NCBI GenBank assembly: GCA_031281385.1
Contig: JAITFL010000124.1
Location: forward strand, 1-13,500
Origin: Holophagales bacterium
GTDB taxonomy: Bacteria > Acidobacteriota > Holophagae > Holophagales > Holophagaceae
Length of the DNA: 13,500 bases
Reading direction: 5' to 3'
Positions within the stretch are counted from its first letter, which is position 1, and every line of letters starts with the position of its first letter. The notes beneath the pieces were generated by a model, which searched no databases, was not told the DNA's origin, and saw nothing but the letters and a program-made list of their open reading frames with translations. Of this stretch, positions 7,710 through 13,498 are shown one piece after another. The position numbers were made by a program, and so were the translations under genes.

Positions 7710-7797
7710 CAGTTCTCCACTGTCGAAGCACTTGCAAAACCCATTACCATTGTCCATAACCTCTTATTCAATTCCTGAAAACTGCTACACAAAAAGC

Positions 7798-7912
7798 CAC
7801 CCTCAATTATAGCCCTTCCCGTAGGGAATGGCACGGAGTGCATAGGCTGCGCCGATAATGGTAAGGGGAAAATCTTCATGGCACCATTTTTGTCCGTCAT
7901 TAATTGAGGGTG
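7798..7912. repeat. Long-range inverted repeat with internal hairpins
   Basis: Perfect 12-base arms CACCCTCAATTA (7798-7809) and TAATTGAGGGTG (7901-7912) enclose 91 bases that contain a small hairpin TTCCC-gta-GGGAA (7816-7828) and ATGG-ca-CCAT near 7878-7887. It could be a closed RNA or cruciform-like fold upstream of xthA. Confidence 0.5.
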
Positions 7913-7928
7913 CCCATGCGGATGTATA

Positions 7929-7961
7929 GCGTATCCAAGCGCAAGCGCAGGATACCGAGAG
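7929..7961. repeat. Short hairpin repeat, first copy
   Basis: A nested hairpin: GTATCC (7931-7936) pairs with GGATAC (7950-7955) and inner GCGC (7939-7942) with GCGC (7945-7948). The whole run from GCGTATCC to ACCGAGAG recurs at 13465-13498 with only a two-for-one-base change between GTATCC and AGCGC. Confidence 0.7.
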
Positions 7962-7998
7962 ATGAAACAAGCCACCGATAGGGATGGAGACTAATCGC

Positions 7999-8184
7999 CG
8001 TTGGCTTTGACGCTACGCGGCAGCGTCATACCGATTTGCAATCAAAAGATTGCATAATCGGTATAAGGCGGCGGGAACCGACGCCCGCAAGTTTTTGAAA
8101 ATGCTGGGTTTCCCGGCGTTTTCAAAAACTTTGGCGTACAGCGTTCAATGTCAATTGAACGCAATTTGGTATCAAAAGCCAACG
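7999..8184. repeat. Multibranched hairpin structure, possible structured RNA
   Basis: A 10-bp closing stem CGTTGGCTTT (7999-8008) / AAAGCCAACG (8175-8184) encloses five hairpins: GACGCT / AGCGTC (8009-8014, 8022-8027); a 16-bp stem with one bulge (8028-8043 with 8048-8064, loop AAAA); GCGGG / CCCGC (8071-8075, 8084-8088); a 20-bp stem with two G.T pairs (8089-8108 with 8112-8131, loop TTT); and GCGTTCAAT / ATTGAACGC (8141-8149, 8154-8162). Nearly all bases are in some stem, far more than expected by chance. No known RNA family is recognised and the strand of any transcript is unknown. Confidence 0.6.
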
Positions 8185-8274
8185 CCACTTGACCTTGTTC
8201 CTCCGGTGACTTGCAAGACTCTGCCAAATCTTTTCTTACTGGCGAATGGCAATTCCATCACGCCGAATGAAGAC

Positions 8275-8511
8275 GCGGCGAGGTCATTCGCCGCTTGGAC
8301 TCGGGACGGGCGTACTTCGGCCTTGAGTGTTTCGCGCCGAGTCATGGAAAAGCTTATTAAATGCTAACTGGGGATTCATTCAGGGTGGCCTCGCATGCGA
8401 GTCCACCCTTCATTACTCCCCAGACCCCTTATACTCGCTTCGCCTACGGCCCTATGTAGGGGCTGATACATGGGCACGGCTTCGATGAACGCGAAGAGAG
8501 TTTTGCAAGTG
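8275..8511 (-). repeat. Dispersed repeat copy R1 (full length)
   Basis: Read on the minus strand: end motif CACTTGCAAAAC (8511-8500), 13 variable bases, the 31-base unit (8484-8454), a conserved block of about 30 bases, the covarying hairpin (8423-8368), the conserved TTAGCATTTAATAAGC and following ~70 bases, and finally GCGGCGA / TCGCCGC (8294-8275, loop of six). Hairpin: outer stem 8368-8374 / 8417-8423, inner stem 8382-8388 / 8403-8409, capped by the 12-base palindrome CTCGCATGCGAG (8390-8401). It lies just downstream of the metG-SRPBCC transcription unit in the same sense, so it could be in the 3' end of that mRNA. Confidence 0.75.
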
Positions 8512-8553
8512 GCTCAATTGTCAATTTGTCAGTAGGAATCTCAAAACCCGAAA

Positions 8554-8904
8554 CTAGCCATGTTTTGCAAGATGCTCTATGAGCCGTTCCCAAACGCGCT
8601 CGCTCCTGATGCGCCACCAGCCCATCAAAAGGATCACCGGCCAGCCCTTAAAGCGGTTCCTGTATGTGAGCAATAGTCGGCCCTCTTGTTTTTCCACCGT
8701 GTACCAAGCGTCTTCCTCGATGCCCAACCTATTGAATCTGCACGAAGCCACAAAACGCTCACCGTCCTCCACGATTTGGGGGTCTGCCCTGCGGCAGCGC
8801 GGGTGCCAGCGGCAATAGCTGGCCCCGTCCATCAGTGCATCGCGGACTAAGTGGAAAGGGGCATTGGTGTCCCGCACCAGCTCGAACTGCCAGACAGGGC
8901 GCAT
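8554..8904 (-). CDS. Small SRPBCC/START-like protein
   Basis: A 116-residue protein whose pattern fits the SRPBCC (polyketide cyclase/START-like) fold: an N-terminal strand WQFELVRDTNAP, a helix with YCRWHPRC, beta strands ERFVASCRFNRLG, EEDAWYTVEKQEGRLLLTYR, and a C-terminal amphipathic helix SERVWERLIEHLAKHG. Such proteins bind hydrophobic ligands; the ligand here is unknown. The family is usually 130-160 residues, so it is short. The ATG at 8904, 40 bases after the metG stop, is preferred because the fold begins there; an in-frame ATG at 8973 overlapping metG by 29 bases would add 23 residues. Neither start has a strong Shine-Dalgarno. Probably cotranscribed with metG. Its last codons contain CTTGCAAAAC, which recurs 62 bases further on at the edge of R1. 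Confidence 0.72.
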   Translation of the reverse strand: MRPVWQFELVRDTNAPFHLVRDALMDGASYCRWHPRCRRADPQIVEDGERFVASCRFNRLGIEEDAWYTVEKQEGRLLLTYRNRFKGWPVILLMGWWRIRSERVWERLIEHLAKHG

Positions 8905-8944
8905 CAATGGTTCTGCCGCCCGCAAGGACAATCGTGGATGGGCA

Positions 8945-10912
8945 TCACTTGACGATGAACCCAGGCAGCGCATCGTCAGCGGGCGAGATCAGATAGGGCT
9001 TTGAATTGTTGTCCGAGGCGCACAGCAGCATCCCGTGGCTCTCTATCCCCATCAATTTTCGCGGGGCCAAGTTTGCGACAACAATAACGCTTCTGCCTAC
9101 CAATTGGGCGGGTTCGTAGGCCTTTCCGATGCCGCCAACGACCGTGCGAATTTCTAGCCCAATGTCAACTTTCATCTTTATCAGCTTGTCGCTTTTTGGA
9201 ACCCGCTCTGCCTCCAATATCCTGCCCACCCTAAGGTCTGTCTTCCAAAAAGTGTCGTAGTCTGTCGTTTCGCGGAGTTCGGGTACATCCAGTTTTTGTG
9301 CCTTGGGAGCGGGTGCCGCTTGCTGGGCCTCTATTTCGGCCATCGCCGAATCTTTGTCTATCCTTGCAAACAAAGGCTTGGCCTCTTTCACCGGGCCGGG
9401 GGCTGGAGCTTCCACCGCCAAATCCGCAAATTTCTGGTCTGCGGCCCTGCCCGCAAGCCCCAGCGATTCCCACAGAGTCTGGCACATTTCGGGCATCACG
9501 GGCGAGGCGAGCACGGCGGTCAGCCTAAGGGCGCGGTACAGTTGGGCCAGAACAGTGTCCAGCTTTGCGCTGTTCGATTCGCTCTTTGCCAAATTCCACG
9601 GCTCGGATTTTACGATATAGCCATCTAGGCCCCTGAGCATCCCCCAAAGGCCATCCAACGCGCCGCTGAAGTTGTACTGCTCCATCTTTCCCAAGTATTC
9701 GGGGCCAGCCTTTGCAATCAAGCCCTTTATTTCCTTGTCGGCGTCGTCCCATTTCGCGGGGGTGGGCACCGAGCCGCCGCGGTAGCGGTGGATCATGCTT
9801 ATAGTTCTGCTTGCTAGGTTGCCAAGGCCATTGGCCAAATCTGCGTTGAGGCGTTCCATGTAGCCCTCGAATGTAAAACTTCTGTCGTGCCCAATCTGCA
9901 TGTCCCTGAGCAAAAAATATCTGGCCGCGTCATTCCCAAAGTGCAGCAGCTCTTTTGGCCTGACAATGTTCCCCAGAGACTTGCTGATCTTTGTGTCGCC
10001 CATGAGCCACCATCCATGGGTGAGGATGGCATGTGGCAGTTGCTTTCGTATGCGGTCGGGCAGCTCGCCGTCCAACGCGTCGCCTTTCTCTCTGAACTCC
10101 GCCATGAGGAAGGCAGGCCAATAGACAGCGTGGAAGCGCAAAATGTCCTTGCCTATGACCTGCGCCCTTGGCGGCCAATGGCCATCCTTGCAGCCGCTCA
10201 TGTAGCTGTGCAGCGCGTCAAACCACACGTACATTACGTGTTTCTCGTCCCCGGGCACTGGTATGCCCCACGAAATTGAAGTGCGGCTTATAGAGAGATC
10301 CTGCAAGTGGCCCCTCTCCCCATTTGGCGCGACGAACTGCTTGACTTCGTTCAGGCGAAATTCGGGGACGACAAATTCCGGGTACCGGTCAAACAACTGG
10401 ATCAGCCAATTTTCGTAAGCGGACAGGCGAAAGAAGTAGCTCTCTTCTTTCAATGTCGTAAGCGTATGCCCCAGCCCTTGCGCCTGCAGCTCTTTGACTT
10501 GCATCTCGGTGACAAAGGCCTCGTCCGATACGCTGTAAAGCCCTTCATACTCGGCCTTGTAGATGTCGCCCTTGGCCAATAGCTCCTTGAAACGCTTTTG
10601 CACTAGGTCTTTGTGGGCTTTGTGCGTCGTCCTGATAAAAAAGTCGTGGGTCAGGCCCATCTGTTTCCACAGGTTTTCAAAATTGGGCGCCACGTCGTCA
10701 ACCAACTGCTGCGGGGCTATCCCCAATTCGCTGGCAACCCTCTCGATTTTTTGCCCATGCTCGTCTGTGCCTGTCAAAAAAAACACGTCATCGCCCATCA
10801 TGCGGCGGTGCCTGGCTATTACGTCAACCAAGATCGTTGTGTACGTATGCCCTATGTGCGGCTTGTCGTTCACATAGTACATCGGTGTGGTGATAAAAAA
10901 CTTTTGGGGCAC
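8945..10912 (-). CDS. metG: Methionyl-tRNA synthetase with C-terminal tRNA-binding domain
   Basis: MetG attaches methionine to tRNA-Met in the cytosol. The 655-residue protein shows the class I signatures PHIGH (residues 18-22) and the KMSKS loop as KISKS (308-312), the FLTGTDEHGQKI segment near 46-56 and the anticodon-binding helical domain near 350-500. A C-terminal EMAP/Trbp111-type OB domain (about 550-655, DLRVGRILEAERVPKSDKL to the end) favours dimerisation and tRNA binding. The connective-peptide region (about 125-165) has no cysteines, so the zinc knuckle of many MetRS enzymes is absent, as in the zinc-free group. The start codon is GTG with GGAGGG four bases upstream; translation begins at the expected N-terminus. 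First gene of a likely two-gene unit with the SRPBCC-like gene. Confidence 0.97.
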   Translation of the reverse strand: MPQKFFITTPMYYVNDKPHIGHTYTTILVDVIARHRRMMGDDVFFLTGTDEHGQKIERVASELGIAPQQLVDDVAPNFENLWKQMGLTHDFFIRTTHKAHKDLVQKRFKELLAKGDIYKAEYEGLYSVSDEAFVTEMQVKELQAQGLGHTLTTLKEESYFFRLSAYENWLIQLFDRYPEFVVPEFRLNEVKQFVAPNGERGHLQDLSISRTSISWGIPVPGDEKHVMYVWFDALHSYMSGCKDGHWPPRAQVIGKDILRFHAVYWPAFLMAEFREKGDALDGELPDRIRKQLPHAILTHGWWLMGDTKISKSLGNIVRPKELLHFGNDAARYFLLRDMQIGHDRSFTFEGYMERLNADLANGLGNLASRTISMIHRYRGGSVPTPAKWDDADKEIKGLIAKAGPEYLGKMEQYNFSGALDGLWGMLRGLDGYIVKSEPWNLAKSESNSAKLDTVLAQLYRALRLTAVLASPVMPEMCQTLWESLGLAGRAADQKFADLAVEAPAPGPVKEAKPLFARIDKDSAMAEIEAQQAAPAPKAQKLDVPELRETTDYDTFWKTDLRVGRILEAERVPKSDKLIKMKVDIGLEIRTVVGGIGKAYEPAQLVGRSVIVVANLAPRKLMGIESHGMLLCASDNNSKPYLISPADDALPGFIVK

Positions 10913-10929
10913 GATCCCTCCAACTCACT

Positions 10930-10937
10930 ATTTTATA
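10930..10937 (-). promoter_or_regulatory. Possible -10 element of metG
   Basis: On the minus strand TATAAAAT lies about 17 bases before the GTG start and its GGAGGG. No good -35 is found at the right distance, so the call rests on the -10 alone. The end motif CTTGCAAAAC of R2 begins 24 bases further upstream. Confidence 0.3.
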
Positions 10938-10960
10938 CCGACATGCAATATTTTGGGCTT

Positions 10961-11262
10961 CTTGCAAAACTATCCGCCCGTCTATCGAAGCCATGCCCAT
11001 GTACCAGCCCCTACATCGAAGCCACCCACCATGCATCCACTCGCTGAACGAAGTCATGACCATGTATCAGCCCTTACATAGGGCAGTTGGCGAGGCGAGT
11101 ACCCGGGGTCTGGGGGGTAGCGAAGGGTGGCCGCAACAACGCGCTTACTAGCAACACCAGATGCGGGCAACCCTGAGCGGACCCCCAGTTAGCATCCGGG
11201 CGGGCTCCATGAACCGGCGATGAATGAGCTAAGTCACCGGGCCACCATCCCGAGTACGTAAG
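10961..11262 (+). repeat. Dispersed repeat copy R2 (long form)
   Basis: On the plus strand: CTTGCAAAAC (10961-10970), 15 bases, three tandem 31/32-base units (10986-11079), the conserved ~30-base block (11080-11109), then the hairpin with outer stem CTGGGGG (11110-11116) / CCCCCAG (11182-11188), the G.A-rich middle GTAGCGA (11117-11123) / GAGCGGA (11175-11181), inner AGGGT / ACCCT (11124-11128, 11170-11174) and CCGC / GCGG (11131-11134, 11163-11166). Its apical loop is longer than in R1 and R3. TTAGCAT follows (11189-11195), then sequence still alignable to R1 (TCCATGA...CGGCG, ATCCCGAGT) to about 11262. It points away from metG. Confidence 0.75.
10986..11079 (+). repeat. Three tandem 31/32-base units
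   Basis: Units at 10986-11016, 11017-11048 and 11049-11079 each begin CGAAG; the first and third end in CCC(C/T)TACAT and contain ATGTA...TACAT, able to form a small hairpin, while the middle one has diverged. The same unit occurs singly in R1, R3 and R4 and in tandem (second, degenerate unit) beside R3 and R5. Confidence 0.7.
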
Positions 11263-11406
11263 ATAGGAACGTGCTACCGGGACGCGCCGGGCACCCATTC
11301 TGCCCGATGAATCTGCCGGACTAGGAGTAGGGGTTAGGGTAAGCAAGGAGATCGTTGACAAGGATGCGGGTTGGTGCGCCGCGCCATGCTTATGCCGATT
11401 GATGGC
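11263..11406. other. GC-rich structured spacer between R2 and R3
   Basis: No gene is seen. Hairpins visible at or across its edges: CCCG-AGTACGT (11249-11259) with ACGTGCT-ac-CGGG (11269-11281); CGGGCA / TGCCCG (11288-11293, 11301-11306); and an 11-bp perfect inverted repeat CGCCGCGCCAT (11377-11387) / ATGGCGCGGCG (11402-11412) that competes with the GCGGCGA hairpin of R3. The run GGGTTAGGGTAAGCAAGGAG (11331-11350) resembles GCTAGGGCAAGCAAGGAG on the right side of ilvE (13169-13186). Confidence 0.5.
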
Positions 11407-11648
11407 GCGGCGAGGTCATTCGCCGCTCGAACTCGGGGCGGGCATCTTGTGGCCTGTTGCGTTTTGCGCCGGGGCTTGGAAAAGCTTATTGAATGCTAAC
11501 TGGGGATTCGCTCGGGCCCGCCGCGCATGCGCGTCGAACCCTCGCTACTCCCCAGCCCCCTTGTCCTCGTTTCGCTTACTGACCTATGTAGGGGCTGATA
11601 CATGGACACGGCTTCGATGGGCGGGTGGATGTTTGGGAGATGGCTTCG
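11407..11648 (-). repeat. Dispersed repeat copy R3 (full length)
   Basis: Read on the minus strand: a degenerate unit (11648-11617), the 31-base unit (11616-11586), the conserved block, then the hairpin 11555-11500 with outer stem CTGGGGA / TCCCCAG, G.A-rich middle GTAGCGA / GAGCGAA, short GGG / CCC stem and apical palindrome CGCGCATGCGCG (11522-11533). TTAGCATTCAATAAGC (11499-11484) and about 60 further alignable bases follow, ending in GCGGCGA / TCGCCGC (11426-11407). It is tail to tail with R2 and lies downstream of ilvE in the ilvE sense. Confidence 0.75.
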
Positions 11649-11781
11649 AGGTAGGCTTTTCAGGTGGGAAGAACGCTCATTCGGTGCTAAACGCTCAATC
11701 CGCAATTAATAATCATCGCGGCGAAGCCGCTTCAATACTTACCCTGCCCCCTAGCCCCTGATCTCTGAAACCCGACCCCTC
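11584..11781. repeat. Left arm of inverted repeat enclosing ilvE
   Basis: This stretch aligns end to end with the reverse complement of 13141-13332. Positions 11644-11703 match 58 of 60 bases; the parts on either side are more diverged but keep the hairpin GCGGC-gaa-GCCGC and the closing GACCCCTC. The core contains AACGCTCA twice as a direct repeat. Confidence 0.75.
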
Positions 11782-11809
11782 TTTAAGGGGCGCTTTGCGC
11801 CCCTTAAAG
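11781..11809 (-). terminator. 13-bp hairpin overlapping the ilvE stop codon
   Basis: Perfect arms CTTTAAGGGGCGC (11781-11793) and GCGCCCCTTAAAG (11797-11809), three-base loop. The ilvE stop codon (11804-11806) is inside the stem. Read in the ilvE sense the hairpin is followed by AGGGGTCGGG, not a T-run, so it may protect the mRNA 3' end or end transcription in a factor-aided way rather than as a standard intrinsic terminator. Confidence 0.6.
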
Positions 11810-12916
11810 TATCTTGTAAAGCCACCCATGCGTATCTGGAGCAAGGCCGTGCTGTATGTTCAGCAGCGTTTCGCGCAGCTTCGCGGTGACGGGTCCTGTC
11901 TGGCCGTCCTTGACGACCCAAGTTCCGCGTGAGGATTTGACGGTTCCTATTGGCGTGATAACGGCTGCGGTGCCGCAGGCGAATGCCTCTGTCATGCGAC
12001 CTTCTTTAAGGTCTTTTTCCCAGTCGTCAATCGAAATCCTGCGCTCCTCTGCGCCAAAGCCCAGTTCCTTTGCTACCTCCAGCAGGCTCATGCGGGTAAT
12101 CCCCGGCAGCAGCGTTCCCGTCAGAGCTGGCGTGGCGACTATGGTCTTGCCATTTTCTTCATAGACAAAAAAGATGTTCATCCCGCCCATCTCTTCTACG
12201 TATTTGCGGTGTATGGCGTCTATCCACACAACTTGGTCGCACCCAAGGCCCTGCGCCTGGCGCTGTGCCACTAGGCTGGCGGCATAGTTGCCCGCGCATT
12301 TTGCGTAGCCAGTGCCGCCTGGCGCAGCGCGGACGTAGTCTTCAGAAATCCACACCGTGACAGGCTTTACACCTTGGGGAAAGTAGGCCCCCGACGGAGA
12401 GGCAATCAGGATGAACAGGTATTCTTTGGAAGCCCTGACCCCAAGCCCAATTTCCGTGCTTACCATGAATGGGCGCAAATAAAGGCTTTCACCCAAATTC
12501 TTTGGAACCCACGCGCGCTCTTGCGATACCAGCAGTTCGGTGGCCTCGATAAAAAGCTCCACGGGAAGGTCGGGCATGGCCAGCCTCTTGGCCGACGCAT
12601 TGAACCGGTCGGCGTTGGCCTTGGGCCTAAACGTCTTTATGCTTCCGTCCGGCTGGTGGTATGCCTTGAAGCCCTCAAAGATCGCCTGCCCATAGTGGAA
12701 CACCGACCCCGCCGGGTCAATCGGAATAGGGCCGTACGGCTGCAGCTTGCCCACACCCCAGCCCTCGCCCTCCTTGTAGGGGATAACGACCATGTTTTCG
12801 GTGAGCACCCGGCCGAACCCAGGATTTTTCATCTTGGCCTCCCTCTCGCTGTCCGGCATGGGGGGCGCGGGCATCAACTCAAAGCGTCCGCTTGCAGATA
12901 GTTTGGCATTGGACAT
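11804..12916 (-). CDS. ilvE: Branched-chain amino acid aminotransferase
   Basis: A PLP-dependent class IV (fold type IV) aminotransferase that interconverts leucine, isoleucine and valine with their 2-keto acids using glutamate/2-oxoglutarate. At 370 residues it is of the longer BCAT type (about 350-370) rather than the ~309-residue enterobacterial form. Visible motifs: HYGQAIFEGFKAY, YLRPFMVSTEIGLGV, the Schiff-base lysine K206 in GGTGYAKCAGNYAASL, VEEMGGMNIFFV, TPALTGTLLPGITR and EAFACGTAAVITPIG. The ATG has GGAG five bases upstream. A TACAAT about 70 bases upstream on the gene strand could be a -10, but no well-spaced -35 is seen. No other ilv or leu gene is adjacent; the gene sits alone between inverted repeat arms. 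Confidence 0.97.
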   Translation of the reverse strand: MSNAKLSASGRFELMPAPPMPDSEREAKMKNPGFGRVLTENMVVIPYKEGEGWGVGKLQPYGPIPIDPAGSVFHYGQAIFEGFKAYHQPDGSIKTFRPKANADRFNASAKRLAMPDLPVELFIEATELLVSQERAWVPKNLGESLYLRPFMVSTEIGLGVRASKEYLFILIASPSGAYFPQGVKPVTVWISEDYVRAAPGGTGYAKCAGNYAASLVAQRQAQGLGCDQVVWIDAIHRKYVEEMGGMNIFFVYEENGKTIVATPALTGTLLPGITRMSLLEVAKELGFGAEERRISIDDWEKDLKEGRMTEAFACGTAAVITPIGTVKSSRGTWVVKDGQTGPVTAKLRETLLNIQHGLAPDTHGWLYKIL

Positions 12917-13044
12917 GGTCGCTCCAAAAGGTTCAAGTTTTGGGGGGTGCTAGGATAACTCTGATTGTTGCTTGCATCTACATTGTATCAACTTTTTTGT
13001 GCTTCGCCATCAAACTGTATCTTTTCCCCCAAAAAAAGAACCTT

Positions 13045-13150
13045 TTTGCAAAATCTTCCAAATGCCCATCGAAGCCGTGCCCATGTATCCGCCCCAACAT
13101 AGGGCAGTAGGCGAGGCGAGTACCAGGGGTCTGGGGGGTAGCGAGGGGTC
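13045..13150 (+). repeat. Dispersed repeat copy R4 (truncated)
   Basis: TTTGCAAAAT (13045-13054, 8/10 to the end motif) is followed after 15 bases by one 31-base unit (13070-13100), the conserved block and the 5' half of the hairpin, CTGGGGG-GTAGCGAGGGG (13131-13148). The 3' half of the hairpin and TTAGCAT are missing; the sequence runs instead into the module shared with the left side of ilvE. It points away from ilvE, in its upstream region. Confidence 0.7.
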
Positions 13151-13332
13151 AGGTTTCAAGGATCAGGAGCTAGGGCAAGCAAGGAGGCGGCTTCGCCGCG
13201 TTGATTGTTAATAGCGGATTGAGCGTTTAGCACCGAATGAGCGTTCTTCCCGCCTGAAAAGCCTACCTCAAAGCCATCTCCATGTATCTGTCCGCTCATC
13301 GAAGCCATGCCCATGTATCAGCCCCTACATAG
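13141..13332. repeat. Right arm of inverted repeat enclosing ilvE
   Basis: Reverse-complement partner of 11584-11781. It includes the 60-base core (13214-13273), the hairpin GGCGGCTTCGCCGC around 13186-13199, and overlaps the end of R4 and the 31-base units of R5. It lies outside the presumed ilvE promoter region. Confidence 0.75.
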
Positions 13333-13375
13333 GGCAGTAGGCGAAGCGAGTACCCGGGGTCTGGGGTGCAAGCGG
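13269..13375 (+). repeat. Dispersed repeat copy R5 (truncated)
   Basis: Two tandem 31-base units (13269-13299, degenerate; 13300-13330, consensus-like), then the conserved block up to GGGGTCTGGGG. It departs from the family within the first hairpin arm (TGCAAGCGGGG instead of GGTAGCGAAGG). Same orientation as R4, so R4 and R5 are direct repeats about 230 bases apart. Confidence 0.7.
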
Positions 13376-13464
13376 GGCAGCGCGAGAACGACGCTGAACA
13401 AGCTGAAAACGCACGTGGCAGCACTGGCGACCAATGTGCCGCAGAGGCCAACGGAGGAAGTCTC
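13376..13464. other. Unassigned sequence after R5
   Basis: Nothing recognisable. A plus-strand frame that begins inside R5 (ATG at 13306 or 13312) stays open to the window end and would read TLNKLKTHVAALATNV here, but it has no ribosome-binding site and starts in repeat sequence, so it is not called as a gene; the continuation outside the window could change this. Confidence 0.3.
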
Positions 13465-13498
13465 GCGTATCCGGAGCGCAAGCGCAGGATACCGAGAG
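13465..13498. repeat. Short hairpin repeat, second copy
   Basis: Matches 7929-7961. GTATCC (13467-13472) pairs with GGATAC (13487-13492), GCGC (13476-13479) with GCGC (13482-13485), and here the stem extends with CTCG (13462-13465) / CGAG (13493-13496) across one unpaired C. Confidence 0.7.

Follow-up and report, generated by a model that had tools for sequence, protein, structure and literature searches.

On a contig of a Holophagales bacterium (Holophagaceae, Acidobacteriota), a hairpin found in three full copies lies at the heart of an intergenic repeat that is dispersed, mosaic and non-coding. The two sides of its stem have changed in concert, and a set of unusual G.A pairs has not varied; this suggests preservation of the folded single strand itself. 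We favour, with a probability of roughly 0.38, the reading that this is a dispersed mosaic element whose hairpin, folded in one polarity, would work as single-stranded DNA (ssDNA) in the manner of REP sequences and BIMEs. We infer that the element works like a REP; membership as a REP is not claimed.

Copies and architecture of the hairpin

In the window, by which we mean the whole 13.5 kb stretch of DNA that was analysed (contig JAITFL010000124.1), the hairpin, hereafter the GA hairpin, is present as three full copies (R1, R2 and R3) and two partial ones. The full copies lie in two intergenic regions, and the coordinates given for them in an earlier description of this DNA (the initial annotation) are correct.

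8368..8423, minus strand: GA hairpin copy R1, 56 nt
11110..11188, plus strand: GA hairpin copy R2, 79 nt, with the stem base as in R1 and R3 and an apical part 23 nt longer
11500..11555, minus strand: GA hairpin copy R3, 56 nt
8361..8367 (minus strand, R1), 11493-11499 (R3) and 11189-11195 (R2): TTAGCAT, unpaired, directly 3' of the hairpin in the sense direction
13131..13148, plus strand: hairpin represented by its 5' arm (CTGGGGGGTAGCGAGGGG), with no 3' arm seen; continues into the long M module
13361..13379, plus strand: degenerate 5' arm only (CTGGGGTGCAAGCGGGGCA)

The sense direction of the hairpin is minus at R1 and R3 and plus at R2, and the three copies have a common fold. In R1, a 7-bp outer stem is followed by a 7x7 zone with G.A and A.G oppositions, a 7-bp inner stem, an A.G opposition and a 4-bp apical stem with a CATG loop. 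At the feet of the hairpins, GGGT or GGGG precedes CTGGGG, and TTAGCAT comes after CCCCAG. The sense-strand alignment of R1, R2 and R3 (A2) gives a consensus fold of 21 Watson-Crick or wobble pairs, two of which are unformed in R2. Four G.A/A.G oppositions are kept in all three copies, while R1 and R3 are identical in the CATG loop and in five such oppositions.

The initial annotation had described a shared fold with compensatory changes and a G.A pattern. This description holds, and the case is stronger than was stated there. Outer pair 7 is indeed A-T in R1 and R3 and G-C in R2, and the middle zone reads, on the sense strand, GTAATGA/GAATGAA in R1, GTAGCGA/GAGCGAA in R3 and GTAGCGA/GAGCGGA in R2. 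One T-A pair has become T.G in R2, and a T-A to G-C swap separates the apical stems of R1 and R3, both as described. In the inner stem, three further pairs with two-sided changes (columns 15/65, 18/62 and 20/60 of A2) had been overlooked, as had the fifth A.G opposition, which lies between the inner and the apical stem in R1 and R3 and is replaced by a C-G pair in R2.

Modules surrounding the hairpin

The hairpin is embedded in longer repeats composed of shared modules.

8262..8487, minus strand: longer repeat around R1, with a 3' module N (8262-8367), the hairpin and a 5' module (8424-8487)
11394..11781, minus strand: longer repeat around R3, with module N, the hairpin and the long module M, which runs up to the hairpin overlapping the ilvE end
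10953..11195, plus strand: 5' module and R2, with a 31-nt unit repeated inside
13042..13379, plus strand: two more copies of the 5' module, each with the hairpin 5' arm only

Positions 8262-8487 and 11394-11619 are 82% identical over 226 bases without gaps, and in the M module 11550-11781 (232 bases) is 83.6% identical to the reverse complement of 13143-13366. R2 shares with R1 and R3 the 5' module, the hairpin and TTAGCAT, and nothing further is visible. As in BIMEs, the hairpins and their shared modules are intergenic and alternate in orientation, in the two regions that hold full copies. Neither terminal inverted repeats nor a target-site duplication were seen, by eye at 11394-11781 or in the lists of repeats, the ends of the repeat being uncertain.

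Several other structures were observed. The 31-nt unit (ATCGAAGCCATGCCCATGTACCAGCCCCTAC) occurs about three times at 10984-11079, upstream of metG. A hairpin formed by GCGGCGAATGACCTCGCCGC (sense) is identical in both N modules (8275-8294 and 11407-11426) and has a terminator-like score at R1. A 43-base repeat (88%) is found at 7920-7961 and 13456-13498, with an identical 24-base core and a GTATCC...GGATAC hairpin. Finally, positions 8000-8183 form a 184-base island of stacked hairpins with the termini GTTGGCTTT...AAAGCCAAC and GCC on both flanks; it looks like a MITE. Positions 8018-8192 fold far above shuffles (RNA z -9.9 on plus and -7.4 on minus).

Covariation of the stem

Standard pairs occupy 61 of the 63 cells (96.8%) formed by 21 pairs in three copies, and 7 of the 21 pairs show a two-sided change in one copy or more. 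When the 3' letters were shuffled among copies, none of 500 shuffles reached the observed paired cells, two-sided changes or covariation score, and 18 of 500 reached the observed number of pair types. With the partners displaced by 1-3 columns, 29-52% of the cells were paired and the two-sided changes numbered 0-1, compared with 96.8% and 7 observed. Since this last control favours any structure drawn from its own sequences, a direct test of R1 against R3 was added.

Of the 56 positions, 13 differ between R1 and R3, and every one of these is among the 42 paired positions. The pairs show six two-sided changes and one one-sided change, and none is broken. With the 13 differences placed at random, six two-sided changes were reached in 0 of 200,000 runs; with positions fixed and letters random, they were reached in 0.7%. 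The 14 unpaired positions, comprising the G.A oppositions and the loop, are invariant (hypergeometric 0.0135). Divergence is higher in the stem (13 of 42 paired positions) than in the flanks (28 of 170 positions). Judged by the longest run, the blocks conserved between R1 and R3 are not significantly clustered (P 0.30).

Compared with R1 and R3, R2 keeps four and three two-sided changes, respectively, with two pairs broken in each comparison (20 of the 21 pairs counted). The 79 nt of R2 alone fold better than shuffles (z -4.16), whereas R2 with its flanks (11080-11240) folds no better than shuffles (z -0.62). R2 is weaker evidence, and the three-copy case leans mostly on R1 versus R3. Selection on the fold, as proposed in the initial annotation, is supported by two-sided changes beyond chance, by the invariant G.A and loop positions and by controls free of this pattern.

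These tests also bear on a mutational artefact, in which the arms would have been made alike by template switching in a quasi-palindrome or would match by chance. Template-switching correction can make hairpin arms complementary, but here two covarying pairs are flanked on both sides by unrepaired G.A oppositions, so that a copying tract of two bases would be required. Chance is itself made very unlikely by the random-placement and fixed-position results for R1 and R3. We regard this explanation as largely refuted and its truth as very improbable.

Control hairpins

The same repeats contain another hairpin (GCCCATGTA...TACATAGGGC), present in five copies with nine pairs. There, 79 comparisons are unchanged and all 11 varied comparisons, which concern two pairs, are broken, in one copy; it shows no covariation. 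For the GA hairpin, 13 of 19 varied pair comparisons are two-sided and kept, two are one-sided and four are broken.

Two palindromic repeat families (four copies each) were taken from G307, the nearest genome by MetG (82%) among 396 phylum genomes sampled evenly from a larger group. Two-sided kept changes account for 3 of 36 and 3 of 33 varied comparisons in these families, one-sided changes for 12 and 21, and broken pairs for 21 and 9. Their two-sided counts were reached by 118 and 131 of 500 shuffles. The families were chosen by eye from the best 60 of 147 repeat pairs, after 14 folded stretches had been viewed, and this control is not blind because broken pairs were already visible in one family at selection.

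The control families are relevant to the proposal that the hairpin is passive, a palindromic part of a MITE-like element that a DDE transposase would move, and is kept only through copying. G307 is rich in dispersed multi-hairpin repeats, possibly IS630-like, and the window contains a similar island at 8000-8183; both points count in favour of this proposal. The G307 families lack the covariation of the GA hairpin (3/36 and 3/33 against 13/19). At the ends of the GA-hairpin repeat, which are uncertain, no terminal inverted repeats were seen by eye. A passive module appears unlikely.

Strand polarity

One strand polarity of the hairpin is favoured, which is compatible with RNA and ssDNA alike. 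In all 12 middle-zone oppositions the sense strand has G.A or A.G, with C.T on its complement, and each of the three wobble cells reads T.G on the sense strand (C.A on the other). The DNA fold energies for R1, R2 and R3 are -18.9, -20.2 and -19.3 kcal/mol on the sense strand versus -14.7, -15.7 and -13.1 kcal/mol on the antisense strand. As RNA, sense and antisense reach -33.7 and -30.4 kcal/mol for R1, -39.4 and -37.6 kcal/mol for R2, and -36.6 and -27.1 kcal/mol for R3. The differences between sense and antisense, for DNA and RNA alike, are to be taken with caution, as the energy tables credit tandem G.A. Tandem G.A pairs are stable in DNA.

The hairpin could alternatively matter as extruded duplex DNA, where a DNA-bending or supercoiling protein would find a double-stranded or cruciform site. 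Its intergenic position, palindromic character, dispersal and occurrence in both orientations would suit such a site. A cruciform carries both strands, and the confinement of the G.A oppositions and T.G wobbles to one of them therefore argues against this reading, which we judge quite unlikely.

Genomic context

The window carries housekeeping genes, among them those below; the gene names other than metG are a reading of translations.

8554-8973, minus strand: SRPBCC-like open frame
8945-10912, minus strand: metG
11804-12916, minus strand: ilvE

MetG is 95% identical to P0001 and 81-82% identical to P0003 and P0005 (Holophagales/Holophagaceae MAGs). The gene order of G307 differs from that of the window. 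In the sense direction, R1 follows a same-strand gene at about 130 nt and R3 does so at about 250 nt, and R2 is antisense and upstream of metG. R2 and R3 share one intergenic region, in which their 3' ends point towards each other.

No promoter-like site was found in 10900-11830 (0.6 expected), and two were found in 7758-8560 (0.8 expected), one of which, a weak one, precedes R1. Positions 11781-11809 form a perfect 13-bp hairpin that reaches into the end of ilvE; it scores as terminator-like on the plus strand only, ilvE being on minus, and so does not indicate that ilvE transcripts end ahead of R3. A 120-aa open frame running through R3 was taken as spurious because no relatives were found (five candidates, none with E<=1). 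Translations from the window were read by eye, and no Y1 transposase-like open frame was noticed.

This context is pertinent to the chief alternative, a structured RNA: the element would be transcribed, and the hairpin with its tandem G.A pairs would bind a protein or stabilise the transcript, either in a small RNA or at the 3' ends of mRNAs. The position of R1 and R3 means that both could be in mRNA 3' ends. Watson-Crick covariation with fixed non-canonical pairs and a fixed loop, the greater stability of the sense RNA in the three copies and the unpaired TTAGCAT 3' of each of them speak for an RNA. A role of REPs as RNA has, moreover, been put forward: many REPs are possibly transcribed and act as RNA, and their G-T pairs and downstream position are taken as a hint of this in part of PMC3733652. 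A possible outer helix around the hairpin has one two-sided change in R1/R3 (columns 94-98/178-182 of alignment A3), but R2 folds differently there and has no counterpart at the same place; with a single two-sided change in two copies, it was dropped as part of the element. The antisense position of R2 upstream of metG, the scarcity of promoter-like sites, the neighbouring hairpin without covariation and the failure of any Rfam family to reach its threshold all count against an RNA. On balance a structured RNA is a serious possibility, to which we give less than even odds, and ssDNA is slightly more likely than RNA.

Searches for further copies

The initial annotation had proposed a search of Rfam and a collection of copies from relatives. 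In Rfam, no family was found at its gathering score; nine weak matches in 7930-8560 and one in 10915-11803 were all far below threshold, the best on R1 having 16.5 bits against a threshold of 70. In the relatives covered, the search gave no convincing copy; each of the distribution searches was limited in its query and they cover relatives, not the genus itself.

One exact pattern gave no match in GTDB contigs, and four gave none each in IMG/VR. Distant BLAST searches with 8262-8530 in plasmids and 10940-11800 in phages returned nothing. Among 77 Holophagaceae genomes, the DNA of 8262-8530 was found in none (up to nine candidates scored per genome), and that of 11387-11790 gave fragments of 20-44 nt in six, with E values from 1.8e-4 to 0.0076, which were taken as chance. 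One match of 36 bases at 89% (L119:1501-1536 in G140, E 1.8e-4) concerns the beginning of module N, in the region of the GCGGCGA hairpin, and may likewise be chance. A covariance model gave two marginal matches at E<=1 (0.67 and 0.86) in the 77 family genomes. In 93 class genomes, with stricter filters and a limit of 50 scored candidates each, it gave none at E<=0.01, an empty answer which, without a known positive, shows little. The hairpin was not found in the 183,903 bases of G307 that were searched. An architecture scan written from the three copies returned only R1, R2 and R3 from 1,610,276 bases (the window and 118 loci).

PF01797 is present in 13 of the 77 family genomes. It is absent from the five of the 396 sampled phylum genomes that score highest by MetG (G307, G346, G323, G105 and G165).

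G307, the only genome measured in this respect, has 147 self-match repeat pairs in 183,903 bases and contains dispersed multi-hairpin repeats (for example L106:4747-4947, L106:6013-6183, L116:1-168, L100:5334-5505 and L099:7742-7839). One of its repeat families has TTAGAATTGGAAT at an end, and TTAGAATTGGAAT also follows the end of a putative IS630-like transposase (L081:1-150).

In the literature on REP/RAYT, mosaic elements and Holophaga repeats, the titles and abstract openings of the matches listed do not describe the hairpin. A query on intergenic repeats with compensatory changes had no match, and the abstract openings of the matches on G.A mismatch DNA concern other subjects.

A possible mode of action

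If the hairpin acts in a REP/BIME-like manner, it would fold as ssDNA in one polarity, and a trans-acting protein would bind the folded strand in a strand-specific way, reading the shape of the stem, the G.A pairs and the loop. The bound protein might then spread or cut the element. The best-known candidate for such a partner would be a HUH (Y1) tyrosine transposase.

We counted in favour of the ssDNA reading the covariation and chance tests, the greater stability of the sense strand in the three copies both as DNA and as RNA, the presence of copies in both orientations relative to genes, the truncation of copies and exchange of modules, a trait of mosaic elements, and the lack of promoter-like sites in 10900-11830. 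Counted against it were that no Y1-like frame was noticed and PF01797 is absent from the five genomes closest by MetG, that the foot of the hairpin has no GTAG/CGTC tag, that there are three full copies only, on one contig, and that fixed non-canonical pairs with covarying stems are equally expected of a structured RNA.

REP sequences offer precedents, as far as the parts of the papers used here describe them. In E. coli, the activity of TnpA-REP needs the conserved stem mismatches of REPs, and one strand only is bound (PMC8266576). REP subfamilies have alternative complementary stem residues, and in the GTAG-24 elements of P. aeruginosa unpaired GA residues are fixed (PMC3733652).

A wider claim would be doubtful at present. 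It would hold that an uncultured Holophagaceae genus has an undescribed class of dispersed bacterial hairpin, with a fixed G.A ladder and a covarying stem, whose folded single strand is read by a protein other than the known RAYTs and the IS200/IS605 transposases. The three copies are enough to suggest that a one-strand fold is preserved, the stem varying more than the flanks without a broken pair between R1 and R3. If more copies confirm this, action as RNA or as ssDNA would become testable for such repeats, and one could look for a partner protein that reads structure in the Holophagaceae group, for which, to our knowledge, none is known.

Comparison with known systems

Certain features of the GA hairpin recall known structures, on the RNA as well as on the DNA side. 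There are structured RNAs with tandem sheared G.A pairs, which share with it the tandem GA/AG next to a stem and the covarying helices; unlike these, it has no Rfam match. The kink-turn is defined with a three-base bulge, which the hairpin lacks, and this candidate was dropped. A reading as a terminator was considered and also dropped.

MITEs and mosaics such as RIME, an intergenic mosaic element, are small, dispersed, non-coding and multi-hairpin, as is the repeat that carries the GA hairpin. It differs in its stem covariation, which was not seen in the two G307 palindromic families, and in that no terminal inverted repeats were seen by eye.

The attC sites of integrons have an outer and an inner stem with an unpaired central zone between them, and their apical part varies in length, a layout that resembles that of the GA hairpin. 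Their boxes RYYYAAC/GTTRRRY are complementary and close the stem. An identity as attC was rejected: no AAC-type box was seen by eye 5' of the sense hairpin, and GTTAGCA on its 3' side is without a complement before it. The GA hairpin is, moreover, found among housekeeping genes rather than cassettes.

The subterminal hairpins of IS200/IS605 elements are likewise imperfect and recognised on one DNA strand (PMC8266576, in part). In contrast to these, the GA hairpin came with no transposase gene that was noticed, and no paired left and right ends were seen.

The closest known system is that of REPs and BIMEs, for which parts of PMC3733652, PMC8266576, PMC2817692 and PMC3116915 served as background. 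REPs measure 20-40 bp with stems of 5-13 bp (PMC3733652), while the GA hairpin has 56-79 nt and 21 pairs over stacked helices and so lies outside this size range. REPs are also marked by their many copies per genome; for the GA hairpin, the 13.5 kb of the window give three full and two partial ones. The GTAG tag of REPs may vary as GYAG, GYRG, GTRG or GTMG (PMC3733652); in the GA hairpin, GTAG/CGTC is absent at the foot, and GTAG appears only in the middle zone of R2 and R3 (GTAA in R1). The GA hairpin also has more G.A oppositions than the REPs described in these parts, and no RAYT was seen. Common to both are short intergenic hairpins in both orientations, mosaics and inverted pairs, together with conserved stem mismatches, alternative complementary stem residues and strand specificity (PMC3733652, PMC8266576).
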